Assembly (NCBI RefSeq): GCF_001975725.1
Contig: NZ_CP019434.1
Coordinates: 1,506,387-1,570,386 of the forward strand
Length of the DNA stretch: 64,000 nt
Direction of reading: 5' to 3'
DNA from: Acidihalobacter ferrooxydans
GTDB taxonomy: Bacteria > Pseudomonadota > Gammaproteobacteria > DSM-5130 > Acidihalobacteraceae
Positions within the stretch are counted from its first letter, which is position 1, and each line of letters starts with the position of its first letter. The translations under genes were made by a program, and so were the position numbers. The notes under the pieces are model-generated. The model was not told the origin of the DNA. It was given only the letters and a program-made list of their open reading frames with translations, and did not search any database. Of this stretch, positions 2,043 to 57,440 are shown one piece after another.

Positions 2043-2285
2043 CGACAAAGGTTGCGCAGTCCACTGCCGATGTTCCACTTATTTACCGTGCGCGCAATGG
2101 ATTGTCTGACTTCAATGGGCTGAATTTATTGATAGCTATTTTTTATGAAATCGACTACAGTGCGTCTCACTACAGATATTGTTATCGGTCGTTTTCAGCA
2201 TCTCCCTTCGATTGCTTCTTGAACTCCCCTCAGCACTACCTGTACGTGCAACTCCTAAATTTGATTCAGCAAAGGTGTTTATTAA
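2043..2285 (+). promoter_or_regulatory. AT-rich leader upstream of the cold-shock gene
   Basis: These 243 bp between pfk and csp are much more AT-rich than the surroundings and contain no credible gene. A long structured 5' UTR is typical of cspA-type mRNAs, where it controls stability and translation by temperature. Here the position and composition fit, but no canonical cold box or promoter was identified with certainty, so the assignment is inference. Confidence 0.35.
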
Positions 2286-2492
2286 ATGGCAACAGGTACT
2301 GTTAAGTGGTTCAACGAAAGCAAGGGCTTTGGCTTCATTTCCCAGGATGACGGTGGATCTGACGTGTTTGTGCACTTCAGCGCGATCACCGGTTCGGGCT
2401 TCAAGACTCTGGCCGAAGGTCAGGTAGTCAGCTTTGATGTCGAAAGTGGCCCCAAGGGTCCGCAGGCCAGCAACGTTGTAGCTGCGCAATAA
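2286..2492 (+). CDS. Cold-shock protein, CspA family
   Basis: 68-residue single cold-shock domain, full family length. RNP1 (KGFGFI, residues 13-18) and RNP2 (VFVHF, 27-31) are intact, and the N-terminus [16 protein letters not shown] is classical. Such proteins bind single-stranded nucleic acid and act as RNA chaperones in the cytosol. The gene stands alone behind an AT-rich leader and is followed by a strong intrinsic terminator, so it is a monocistronic unit. Whether it is cold-inducible or constitutive cannot be told from the protein. Confidence 0.96.
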
Positions 2493-2561
2493 GACTCCCT
2501 GCCGAAAGCGAAGCGAACCGCTAGCGAGAGCTATTGCGAGTCGCGCTTTCCATGGAGCATA

Positions 2562-2608
2562 CGGGTCGGCGCTTGGCCTTTCGGGGCTAAAGCTCCGACC
2601 CGTTTTTA
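2562..2608 (+). terminator. Intrinsic terminator of the cold-shock gene
   Basis: The arms CGGGTCGG (2562-2569) and CCGACCCG (2595-2602) are perfect complements, can extend inward with one mismatch, and are followed directly by TTTTT (2603-2607). Confidence 0.85.
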
Positions 2609-2692
2609 TTTGTACCGTGCGTCGGGGCTGCAACGATGGCTCTGCGATTGAACTGAATGTACGACTCGTTCGGACATTCCGGGGGTCAATGT

Positions 2693-2956
2693 ATGAAAAC
2701 TTTGTTCGTCGGCAATCTTGCCCCAGAAACCAGTGAACAGGATTTAACCGCATTGTTTGCCGAATTTGGCACAGTGCGCAAGCTCGAAATGCCGCGTGAT
2801 GTGTTTTCCGGTAAGTGCAGGGGATTTGCCCTGATCGATATGGAAGGACACGAAGCGCGTGCCGCAACGGCCGCGCTGGATGGCAAAACATTTCAAGGCG
2901 GCAGCCTCAAAATTCGCGACGAACGTCCAAAACGCAAGGGACGCGGCAGGCGTTGA
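2693..2956 (+). CDS. RRM-domain RNA-binding protein
   Basis: 87-residue protein with one RNA-recognition motif. RNP2 is LFVGNL (4-9) and RNP1 is CRGFALID, with the usual spacing TSEQDLTALFAEFG between them. A basic tail (RPKRKGRGRR) follows, as in small bacterial and cyanobacterial Rbp proteins. It presumably binds single-stranded RNA in the cytosol; no target can be inferred. The ATG at 2693 is chosen because it gives the canonical MKTLFVGNL start; an upstream ATG at 2657 adds 12 unconserved residues. It lies beyond the csp terminator, so it needs its own promoter, although the two RNA-binding genes may respond to the same stress. Confidence 0.92.
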   Translation: MKTLFVGNLAPETSEQDLTALFAEFGTVRKLEMPRDVFSGKCRGFALIDMEGHEARAATAALDGKTFQGGSLKIRDERPKRKGRGRR

Positions 2957-3013
2957 CAGCAACTGTTGTTGTCACTCGACTGAGCGACAACAACAGCCTT
3001 GATAAAGTCGCCG

Positions 3014-4252
3014 TTAGTCCTTGTTGCCGCGCAGCAGGCGATAGGCGAATTCGACTACGAAGCGCAGCAGGTACTGCGTCTTACGTGAGAAGACGATGCC
3101 GAGCAGGCCGAAAATGCCGCCACCTTTCTGTTCGGTTCCTTCCATGACTTTGAACGTGGCGTCCAGCGCGGGCAGCGCACCGGCGATCTGTGGCTGGTAG
3201 CGCTGCGCGAGCACCGCACCCTGTTCGATCCATGCCTTGAGCTGATCATCGGCCGGCATGTGCGGTTCGGCTGCGGTCAGCACCATGTTGAGTTTGCGCA
3301 GCAGGCCAGTGCGGTTGACCGTGCCGAGCATGGTCATCAGCTCGGGGATCATCTGATCCAGACCGGCCTCGCGGGCTCCTTCCAGCATGGTGCGCACGCG
3401 CGCGGCCAGGCTGTCGGCATCACCTTTGACGAGTGTAGTACCCATGCGGGCGATGTCGATCCACTCCAGTGCGCCGGCGCCGACCTTGGCGCCGAGGGCG
3501 CCAAAGTCCACTTCGCTCAGCAGTTCGGGGGCGAGGTCGCGGACGGTGCCGACCGCAACGGCCAGATGGCCGCCCCAGTATTCGGCCTGGCCCAGCAGCC
3601 ATTCGACGCGTTCGCCAATGTTTTCGGCGTCACCTTGCGCCAGACGCTTGGCGCGCAGTGCGATGTGCCACCACTGGTCGGCGATGTCTTCGATGACGGC
3701 GATTTTATCCGGCAGGTCCATCTGTACGATTTGCTCGCCGATGATGCGCGCACCCTCACGCGCGGTAGCGGTCCAGTAGCGCAGGTTTTCGTTGAGGCTG
3801 TTCAGACGCTCGCCAAGGGCTTCGGTGTCGAGGTCGGCGGTCAGCGTGCCGATCTGTTCAAGCAGGGGGGGGAGGACTTTGAGCAGGCCGCTGGCGTGCA
3901 GCGCGCCGACCAGATTGATCAATTCTGGAGTCGCCTCGCGCACCTTTGCGGTTTCCATGGCCTGCAGGTTGGCGTGGACGCTGTTTTGCAGATCTTCGGC
4001 GGATTCGATGCCGACGAAATGCATCAGTTCGGTCAGGGTCTGAAGCAGGGCTTCGACTTGCGGGCCGATTTTGTCGGCCATGCCATCGATGTCGATGCTG
4101 TCGCGCATTGACTCAAGGGCGGCCTGCGCCATCTTGAGCAGGTCGGTAATCTGGTTCGCGGTATCGCCGACCTTGCCCAAACCTTCAAGCTGACCGGCGG
4201 TCAGTGTGACTTCCGCGTTCTGGTCCTGCAGCTTCATTGCAGCGTTCGACAT
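3014..4252 (-). CDS. Uncharacterised helical protein with an internal duplication (possible DUF1641 relative)
   Basis: 412 residues, acidic, Ala/Leu-rich and predicted mostly helical, with no signal peptide. Two similar segments stand out: PELINLVGALHASGLLKVL in the first half and PELMTMLGTVNRTGLLRKL in the second, which point to an internal duplication. The pattern of short amphipathic helices around PELxxLxGxxxxxGLL recalls DUF1641 proteins, often encoded near sulfur or formate redox enzymes, but that family link is only a suggestion. The C-terminus (FRFVVEFAYRLLRGNKD-like) is basic and might associate with the membrane. The gene stands alone on the minus strand, convergent with the RRM gene. 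Function unknown. Confidence 0.75.
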   Translation of the reverse strand: MSNAAMKLQDQNAEVTLTAGQLEGLGKVGDTANQITDLLKMAQAALESMRDSIDIDGMADKIGPQVEALLQTLTELMHFVGIESAEDLQNSVHANLQAMETAKVREATPELINLVGALHASGLLKVLPPLLEQIGTLTADLDTEALGERLNSLNENLRYWTATAREGARIIGEQIVQMDLPDKIAVIEDIADQWWHIALRAKRLAQGDAENIGERVEWLLGQAEYWGGHLAVAVGTVRDLAPELLSEVDFGALGAKVGAGALEWIDIARMGTTLVKGDADSLAARVRTMLEGAREAGLDQMIPELMTMLGTVNRTGLLRKLNMVLTAAEPHMPADDQLKAWIEQGAVLAQRYQPQIAGALPALDATFKVMEGTEQKGGGIFGLLGIVFSRKTQYLLRFVVEFAYRLLRGNKD

Positions 4253-4498: not shown

Positions 4499-4774
4499 GG
4501 CGGCGGAACTTCGACGCAGGCACCTGCGTGGTTTGCCTATGTCATGGCGCGGTCTGCGGTGGACTGTTTAGACACGAGCGATCATCGACAACGGCGAGAG
4601 TCCGTCGGGGTTCGACACCAACCGGAACAGTTCATCCGGCTTCGGCGCGTGGTGTGTCGGCAGCGGTGGTGCCGCCCGACGATGCCCTCCGGCACCTCGC
4701 GAACAATCGCAGATACGGGCAACGGAACATCCACGCCGACCTGGACACTGTCGATTGGAGGTCTGGTGACCTAG

Positions 4775-4935
4775 GAGCCTGTCGGACTTGGAAAGAATCG
4801 GCTGCGGCGATGGGATAATGGGCCCATTTCCCCGCTCTTTTTCGTCGAATAGAACCACTATTGTCCTCAAAAGAGCGAAAAACTGGCCTCCATTCCCCAC
4901 TCGCCTCGCTTCGATCCTCCAAGTCCGACAGGCTC
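4775..4935. mobile_element. MITE-like element, family A copy 1 (161 bp)
   Basis: Perfect 17-bp terminal inverted repeats (left GAGCCTGTCGGACTTGG, right its reverse complement) flanked on both sides by CTAG (4771-4774 and 4936-4939), which looks like a 4-bp target duplication. The interior has no coding frame. Diverged copies lie at 57278-57440 (163 bp, inverted orientation) and 13434-13578. This is the architecture of a non-autonomous element mobilised in trans by a full-length IS elsewhere. CTAG-type duplications are known for some IS families, but no transposase in this window carries matching ends. Confidence 0.85.
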
Positions 4936-5000
4936 CTAGGAGGATCGTGGCGATGCGCGAGGGGACTTGAGGGGGGCGATCTTTATGCGCAATAGTGGAA

Positions 5001-13433: not shown

Positions 13434-13578
13434 AAAGGTTGTCGAGATTTTACTCATGCGGCACGGCAGGGCGTCAAAATCTGGCGCAAAATACTCATTT
13501 GCGTTCTGCTAAAAAAGCACAAAACCGACTTTATATTGCATGCTCTCCTCGCCACGATCCTGCAAGTCCGACAGGATC
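13434..13578. mobile_element. Degraded MITE-like element, family A copy 3
   Basis: The right end is clear: CTCCTCGCC.CGATCCT and then GCAAGTCCGACAGGATC match the right end of copy 1 at 4935. The preceding AAAAAAGCACAAAACCGAC corresponds to the interior AAAAGAGCGAAAAACTGGC. The left end (AGGTTGTCGAGATTT near 13434) is only weakly similar to the TIR, so the left boundary is approximate. Confidence 0.55.
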
Positions 13579-57277: not shown

Positions 57278-57440
57278 GAGGCTTGTCGGACTCGGTGGAT
57301 CGTAGCGGGGCAGTGGGCAGAGGAGGCCGGTTTTTCGTTCTTTCAATGAAAACTAATGATAGTTCTCAAGCCGAAAAAGGATGGGTTGTGGGGCCATTCT
57401 CTCCTCGCCGCTAAATTCTTATCAAGTCCGACGGTGGCTC
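57278..57440. mobile_element. MITE-like element, family A copy 2 (163 bp)
   Basis: Left end GAGGCTTGTCGGACTCGG, right end CAAGTCCGACGGTGGCTC, both diverged forms of the 17-bp terminal repeat. In reverse complement it aligns along its whole length with copy 1 (4775-4935), sharing GCGAAAAACTGGCCTCC-like and CCCACT.GCC.CGCT.CGATCC interior blocks. No target duplication is visible. Confidence 0.75.

Follow-up and report, generated by a model that had tools for sequence, protein, structure and literature searches.

A CTAG-inserting type II MITE family in Acidihalobacter ferrooxydans, very probably mobilised by IS1182-family transposases and keeping a conserved fold

A short palindromic sequence without coding capacity lies near the start of the stretch of the Acidihalobacter ferrooxydans genome analysed here (64,000 nucleotides, hereafter the window), and it raises the questions of what kind of element it is, what moves it and why its interior folds as it does. 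The initial annotation took it for a MITE-like element with perfect terminal inverted repeats (TIRs) and a CTAG duplication, accompanied by two diverged copies in the same window. The answer that we consider highly probable is that it belongs to a type II MITE family mobilised into CTAG by IS1182-family transposases, that the transposase source has decayed in this genome, and that the fold is kept, probably as transcribed RNA. Copy 1 is 161 bp long with CTAG on both sides, as first described, and its TIRs, small size, high copy number and lack of coding capacity bear out the designation MITE-like. The TIRs are indeed perfect, and their length is 18 bp (GAGCCTGTCGGACTTGGA), one more than the 17 bp originally given. 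Throughout, the sense orientation is defined by a TCGTAGCGAG motif near the 5' end, which places the sense strand of copy 1 on the '-' strand (Table 1).

Table 1. Parts of copy 1 and of its two relatives in the window (positions are those of the window)
Feature	Position	Strand	Remarks
161-bp MITE, copy 1	4775..4935	-	Covariance model 154.5 bits on '-'
CTAG target-site duplication, first side of copy 1	4771..4774	.	4-bp duplication backed by empty sites elsewhere
CTAG target-site duplication, second side of copy 1	4936..4939	.	
Terminal inverted repeat	4775..4792	+	GAGCCTGTCGGACTTGGA, 18 bp
Terminal inverted repeat	4918..4935	-	Perfect partner of GAGCCTGTCGGACTTGGA
Conserved subterminal internal loop, 5' strand	4905..4912	-	Consensus GTAGCGAG
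Subterminal internal loop, 3' strand	4797..4806	-	Copy 1 CGCAGCCGAT, consensus CGCAGTAGAT
Central conserved loop, 5' strand	4858..4868	-	Copy 1 GAGGACAATAG, consensus GAGGCGAATAG
Central conserved loop, 3' strand	4842..4852	-	Copy 1 CTATTCGACGA, consensus CTATTTAACGA
Old diverged copy 2, 163 bp	57278..57440	+	Flanks CTGG / CCGG; 73% over 156 bp; covariance model 33 bits
Half-copy within copy 3 as first named (13434-13578)	13511..13578	.	About the last 68 bp homologous

The copy census combined searches of the single 3.45-Mb contig that contains the window with the stretches around the copies; 107 copies are covered in the counts of flanks and gene context. With a covariance model made from relatives, and with opposite-strand duplicates removed, the genome holds ~112 distinct copies, which fall into 86 long (~160 bp) and 26 short ones (mostly ~95 bp, without the central hairpin). 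A search with the element itself returned at least 40 copies that are 92-100% identical to the query, among which one equals copy 1 exactly. If up to 2 mismatches are allowed, the 17-bp end has 219 matches in the genome compared with 2 for a reversed control, and these matches together with the ~112 copies exclude a chance palindrome. The family is thus dispersed, as had been proposed, and extends far beyond the three copies first noticed. Of the two relatives in the window, copy 2 is a genuine diverged copy. Copy 3 resembles the element over one end and the adjoining subterminal part and falls below the model threshold; it is a half-copy or remnant. Short derivatives that have lost the central hairpin occur at further loci as well (L059, L063, L012 and L052). 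Together with the 26 short copies here, they retain the ends and, in most cases, the GTAGCGAG/GCAGTAG part, and they have arisen in several genomes. Since some shortened copies are flanked by CTAG at either end, movement apparently does not require the central hairpin. Another dispersed repeat, ~150 bp long and containing GGATGTTTCAT, was seen at L033 (genome 3280100+; 3045-3380) and L040 (6379-6527 and 138-253), and one copy of it is interrupted by the MITE.

Copy number exceeds 100 in this genome, compared with few or no copies in close relatives. Further afield, the covariance model matches 31 of 200 genomes drawn across the phylum, 27 of them outside the window's class, in three families. 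Exact matches to the TIR plus GTAGCGAG are present in Pseudomonas borbori, P. cuatrocienegasensis, Pseudomonas sp. CC6-YY-74, Marinobacterium profundum and Thiohalomonas denitrificans, as well as in assemblies of Nitrosomonas, Thiobacillus, Halothiobacillus, Marinobacter, Janthinobacterium and Lysobacteraceae, many of these named genomes being metagenome bins. Copies on two Pseudomonas plasmids lie ~20 bp past a stop codon, in the sense direction; a single query against phage records gave no match.

The interior of ~160 bp is kept in many genera, which belong to two or more classes of the phylum, and full-length copies of other genomes measure 159-161 bp in 85 of 93 cases. In 21 aligned representatives the stems vary widely while opposed motifs are fixed, GTAGCGAG with CGCAGTAGAT and GAGGCGAATAG with CTATTTAACGA. 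RNAalifold folds these representatives into one hairpin of 60 pairs, 36 of which show compensatory changes. Paired cells make up 95.9%; the value is 82.1% for shuffles and does not exceed 48% when partners are slid, and none of 500 shuffles reaches any observed covariation measure. Taken singly, a copy folds better than its shuffles by 10 standard deviations on the sense strand and by 9 on the opposite one. The near-constant length noted in the initial annotation is therefore confirmed; probably it is the conserved fold that keeps the interior constant, and not precise mobilisation alone. A conserved RNA structure had been named as a finding that would speak against a mobile element. Such a structure is present in a sense, but here it is a property of the mobile element and does not argue against one. 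A tRNA or any other known RNA family is excluded, since no Rfam family matches: at gathering thresholds the window contains two tRNAs and no other match, and the best match of a permissive search reached 28.9 bits, on both strands, against a cut-off of 137. An intrinsic terminator is excluded by the absence of a U-run after the hairpin.

Selection on a double-stranded DNA hairpin would tolerate G.T and A.C equally. Among 73 elements from other genomes, G.U outnumbers A.C by 193 to 47 at pairs dominated by Watson-Crick combinations, and three pairs are mostly G.U while none is mostly A.C. In the decaying local copies the distinct changes number 36 G.U and 32 A.C, as neutral mutation predicts. 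The difference between genera and local copies gives a Fisher p of 1.4e-5 when cells are compared with distinct changes, and 4e-4 when both sides are counted as cells (193:47 against 82:48), both values being only indicative, as the cells lack phylogenetic independence. In 71 of the 73 elements it is the sense strand that folds better. Taken together, these counts likely reflect selection for a structured RNA (or, less likely, for one single strand of DNA) in the transposing lineage, with local copies free to decay.

The same fold might instead be kept at the level of DNA, as a cruciform or single-strand hairpin that transposition requires, or through mutual correction of the arms by template switching. 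A near-palindrome of 160 bp is the right substrate for such processes, and template switching between palindrome arms imitates compensatory change; moreover, the ends covary symmetrically (GAGGCTG/CAGCCTC in an element from another class, L380) and the ~95-bp copies have spread without the central hairpin. We give this explanation some weight and nonetheless judge it unlikely. Correction between arms would erase mismatched internal loops, yet the loops are among the most conserved internal columns, and a symmetric process predicts about as many G.T as A.C, a balance seen in local decay (~1:1) but not between genera. Because template switching would neither spare fixed loops nor create strand asymmetry, selection on RNA is favoured, for which, by analogy with Correia and ERIC elements, a role in 3'-UTR processing or stability would be the most economical guess.

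We turn now to movement. Both flanks read CTAG in 22 of the 107 copies, and each single side is CTAG in 37; the remaining flanks are mostly one substitution off, CCAG or CTGG. As CTAG is palindromic, such flanks could on their own belong to longer inverted repeats, and it is empty sites that decide. Directly after ssb, where one copy occupies 2958786-2958946, the genome reads TTCTAG, element, CTAG. The ssb orthologues of a same-genus genome and of two of three sister-genus genomes have TTCTAG, with the ssb stop codon, and lack the element; the site is preceded by the conserved DDD[VI]PF C terminus, and the third sister-genus genome has TTCTGA. At two nested or paralogous sites, one copy lying inside an unrelated repeat and another inside an older copy of the same family, the joined flanks match intact paralogues gap-free only if 4 bp are counted once. 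Hence the 4 bp are duplicated. The initial annotation had claimed this duplication and pointed to a comparison of empty sites; such sites exist, the element-free ssb orthologues among them, and with the nested or paralogous sites they support the claim. For copy 1 no orthologous empty site was obtainable, the nearest genomes not being syntenic for the neighbouring genes.

Decay of the CTAG flanks is directional in the 107 copies, with CCAG exceeding CTGG on the left (19:12) and CTGG exceeding CCAG on the right (22:13). Read into the element from either side, CTAGG tends towards CCAGG, as with a very-short-patch-repair-like process. Two other loci (L046 977-2555 and L106 1253-2832) carry 97% identical copies of an element with an IS1380-like transposase (~439 aa; family judged by eye), whose ORF is intact at one site and interrupted in its reading frame at the other. 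One of the two has a MITE exactly where the shared sequence stops, which makes the pair unusable as an empty site.

The ends also lead to a candidate mobiliser. When CTAGGAGCCTGTCGGACTT was searched with one mismatch in 369 genomes of the class, matches were found in 69 genomes, representing 56 of 271 genera, and mostly as pairs ~168 bp apart. One pair, in genome G154, is 1.6 kb apart, with CTAG directly next to CAGCCTGTCGGACTT ends. Found by its ends alone, it encloses an ORF for a 452-aa transposase that matches NF033551 (transpos_IS1182) at 6.5e-108, with 361.7 bits against a cut-off of 270, and that contains the Pfam domains DUF772, DDE_Tnp_1 and DDE_Tnp_1_6. A search with this protein yielded relatives that are intact in G095 and G309 and fragmentary in G177, G279 and G355, their [C/G]AGCCTGTCGGACTT-type ends again adjoining CTAG. 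Ends of 14-17 bp with CTAG are found on every complete IS1182 member close to L081 and on most 5' fragments. The full-length transposase that the initial annotation had supposed to lie elsewhere is thereby supported, as is its expectation of an IS that combines these ends with CTAG: IS1182-family ISs with [C/G]AGCCTGTCGGACTT ends next to CTAG are intact in other genomes. Likeness between IS and MITE is confined to 17-31 terminal bp in BLASTN comparisons, and the covariance model run on the IS loci gave nothing significant. From these comparisons the element is a type II MITE, with ends in common with the IS and an unrelated interior; confinement of the likeness to the TIRs of an autonomous IS is the definition of that type (PMC10969869). 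Its mobiliser is very probably an IS1182-family transposase acting in trans.

Within the A. ferrooxydans genome no intact IS1182 partner was found, a protein search giving broken pieces with stops only, and no full-length IS surrounds the lone ends. A relic at ~1967838 has CTAG and the same end, with CTAGCAGCTTGTCGGACTTGG just before a stop-ridden N-terminal ORF, and is split by another insertion. The sequence that interrupts it (L104 ~2140-3450, genome ~1968140-1969450) is an apparent IS with a putative IS256-like transposase, assigned by eye. The genome's own PF01609 (DDE_Tnp_1) transposases were rejected as a source, as none is bounded by these ends; the MITE ends in two such loci, L043 and L047, are those of adjacent MITE copies. 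In a genome of another class (G370), where the family numbers 14 copies or more, both ends of one element (L380) have changed together, to GAGGCTGTCGG and CGACAGCCTC, and are flanked by CTAG. This suggests a transposase with shifted end specificity.

A different transposase, for instance one of the IS5 group, some of which duplicate CTAG, might move the element, the IS1182 ends being then a coincidence or a shared acquisition. MITEPsy1, which is tied to an IS5-type element, does duplicate CTAG or YTAA (PMC3189936), and some high-copy genomes are without IS1182 matches: this subgroup gave none in G159, G199 and G311, where the mobiliser could sometimes be another one or be lost quickly. The MITEPsy1 ends (GGAAGGTCTGAAAAAGCC) are, however, unrelated, the present ends occur with CTAG both on the complete IS1182 members and on the relic in this genome, and they do not bound its DDE_Tnp_1 loci. 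We therefore consider another transposase improbable, and retain the IS1182 family as partner.

Most copies lie between genes (97 of 107), though ~78% of the sampled DNA was called coding by a simple codon-based gene caller. Sixteen abut a called gene exactly, the flanking bases forming the gene's stop codon, and in all but two of these the stop is TAG or TAA at the CTAG-derived site, nearly always the TAG that was duplicated. The zero-distance peak at stop codons is seen in other genera too. CTAG is about tenfold rarer than composition predicts, with 21 occurrences in the window against 217 expected. We infer that insertion into an amber stop rebuilds the stop, so that such insertions survive. 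Between co-directional genes the sense orientation prevails by 20 to 7 in other genera (p = 0.02) and by 38 to 15 in this genome (p = 0.002), but if genes are called more crudely, the latter ratio drops to 24:13 (p = 0.10); the bias along transcription is modest.

Intergenic placement, together with a covarying fold kept across genera, is also what would be seen if the element were in the first place a structured RNA or regulatory element of the cell that is copied around and is no transposon. This is very improbable in view of the duplication with an empty orthologous site at ssb, the nesting in older copies, the more than 100 copies here against few or none in close relatives, and ends identical to those of an IS. 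REP/BIME-type elements spread by RAYT (TnpA_REP) proteins are likewise short, palindromic, intergenic and abundant, but to our knowledge REPs have neither target duplications nor long TIRs, and with a 4-bp duplication and ends that match a DDE IS in the present family they can be dismissed.

In the mechanism that we propose, an IS1182-family DDE transposase would recognise the [C/G]AGCCTGTCGGACTT ends, excise or copy the element and join it into CTAG, duplicating the 4 bp. Amber stop codons would be rebuilt on insertion, and nearly all other copies would lie between genes; many survivors would be in amber stops because CTAG contains the TAG stop and is rare elsewhere. As the transposase source has decayed here, leaving relics only, the ~112 copies would now be mostly orphaned and mutating. 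The interior is predicted to form one long hairpin with fixed internal loops, kept across genera by compensatory change. The element would be transcribed, mostly by read-through from the upstream gene, and would act, or be tolerated, as a structured 3'-UTR-like RNA. Since the fold is kept across genera, and preferentially on one strand, transcription as structured RNA is the likeliest reason for its conservation.

How does this family compare with known systems? Like other bacterial type II MITEs (PMC10969869), it is non-coding and mostly intergenic, with TIRs, a target-site duplication, likeness to an IS in the TIRs only and a stable fold of the whole element. The MITEs met in the literature surveyed are genus- or species-restricted, whereas here a single interior of ~160 bp, whose stems covary and whose internal loops are fixed, persists in many genera and classes. 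ISPse1, an experimentally captured IS1182 member, is 1653 bp long with IR 16/16 and DR 4 (PMC3281130). Ends of ~15-19 bp, a 4-bp duplication, a length of ~1.6 kb and one DDE transposase are common to the IS1182 family, and the members found here are also in CTAG. The MITE differs from these ISs in lacking a transposase and in having an interior that does not derive from the IS. ERIC and Correia/NEMIS elements are also palindromic and ~100-160 bp long, and are transcribed with genes. They duplicate TA, and the present family differs from them in ends, target, partner and hosts. RNase III processing has been reported for Correia elements and transcript effects for ERIC (cited in PMC10969869). 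MITEPsy1 of Pseudomonas syringae (PMC3189936) is likewise a small MITE that duplicates CTAG or YTAA, and it has been shown to move in vivo; it differs in its length of 100 bp, unrelated TIRs, IS5-type partner and narrow host range. The MITEs of Thiomargarita have different repeats (a 10-bp direct repeat; TATAG). In open-licence publications the end sequence was met only as part of a Geobacter primer, and we found there neither a link between IS1182, MITE and CTAG nor a description of the family.

In bacteria, MITEs are commonly regarded as defunct IS remnants confined to a species; the present family is much wider and more constrained than a typical one. The same length, loops and covarying stems recur in different genera of the Gammaproteobacteria (as GTDB defines them) and in one or more further classes of the phylum. 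That more than 100 copies are carried with little harm would follow from the insertion rule, CTAG often being part of the stop codon site itself. Going further, we put forward as a tentative possibility that this MITE lineage carries a genuine structured RNA, one strand of which has been selected across at least two classes, and that this RNA protects or controls host transcripts, typically just after their stops, thereby making insertions tolerable. The element would then amount to a mobile, ready-made 3'-UTR element. Should the RNA reading be true, this would be a mobile RNA element with a directly testable function; even should it be false, the covariance model and the partner would be available for annotating a repeat of many genomes.
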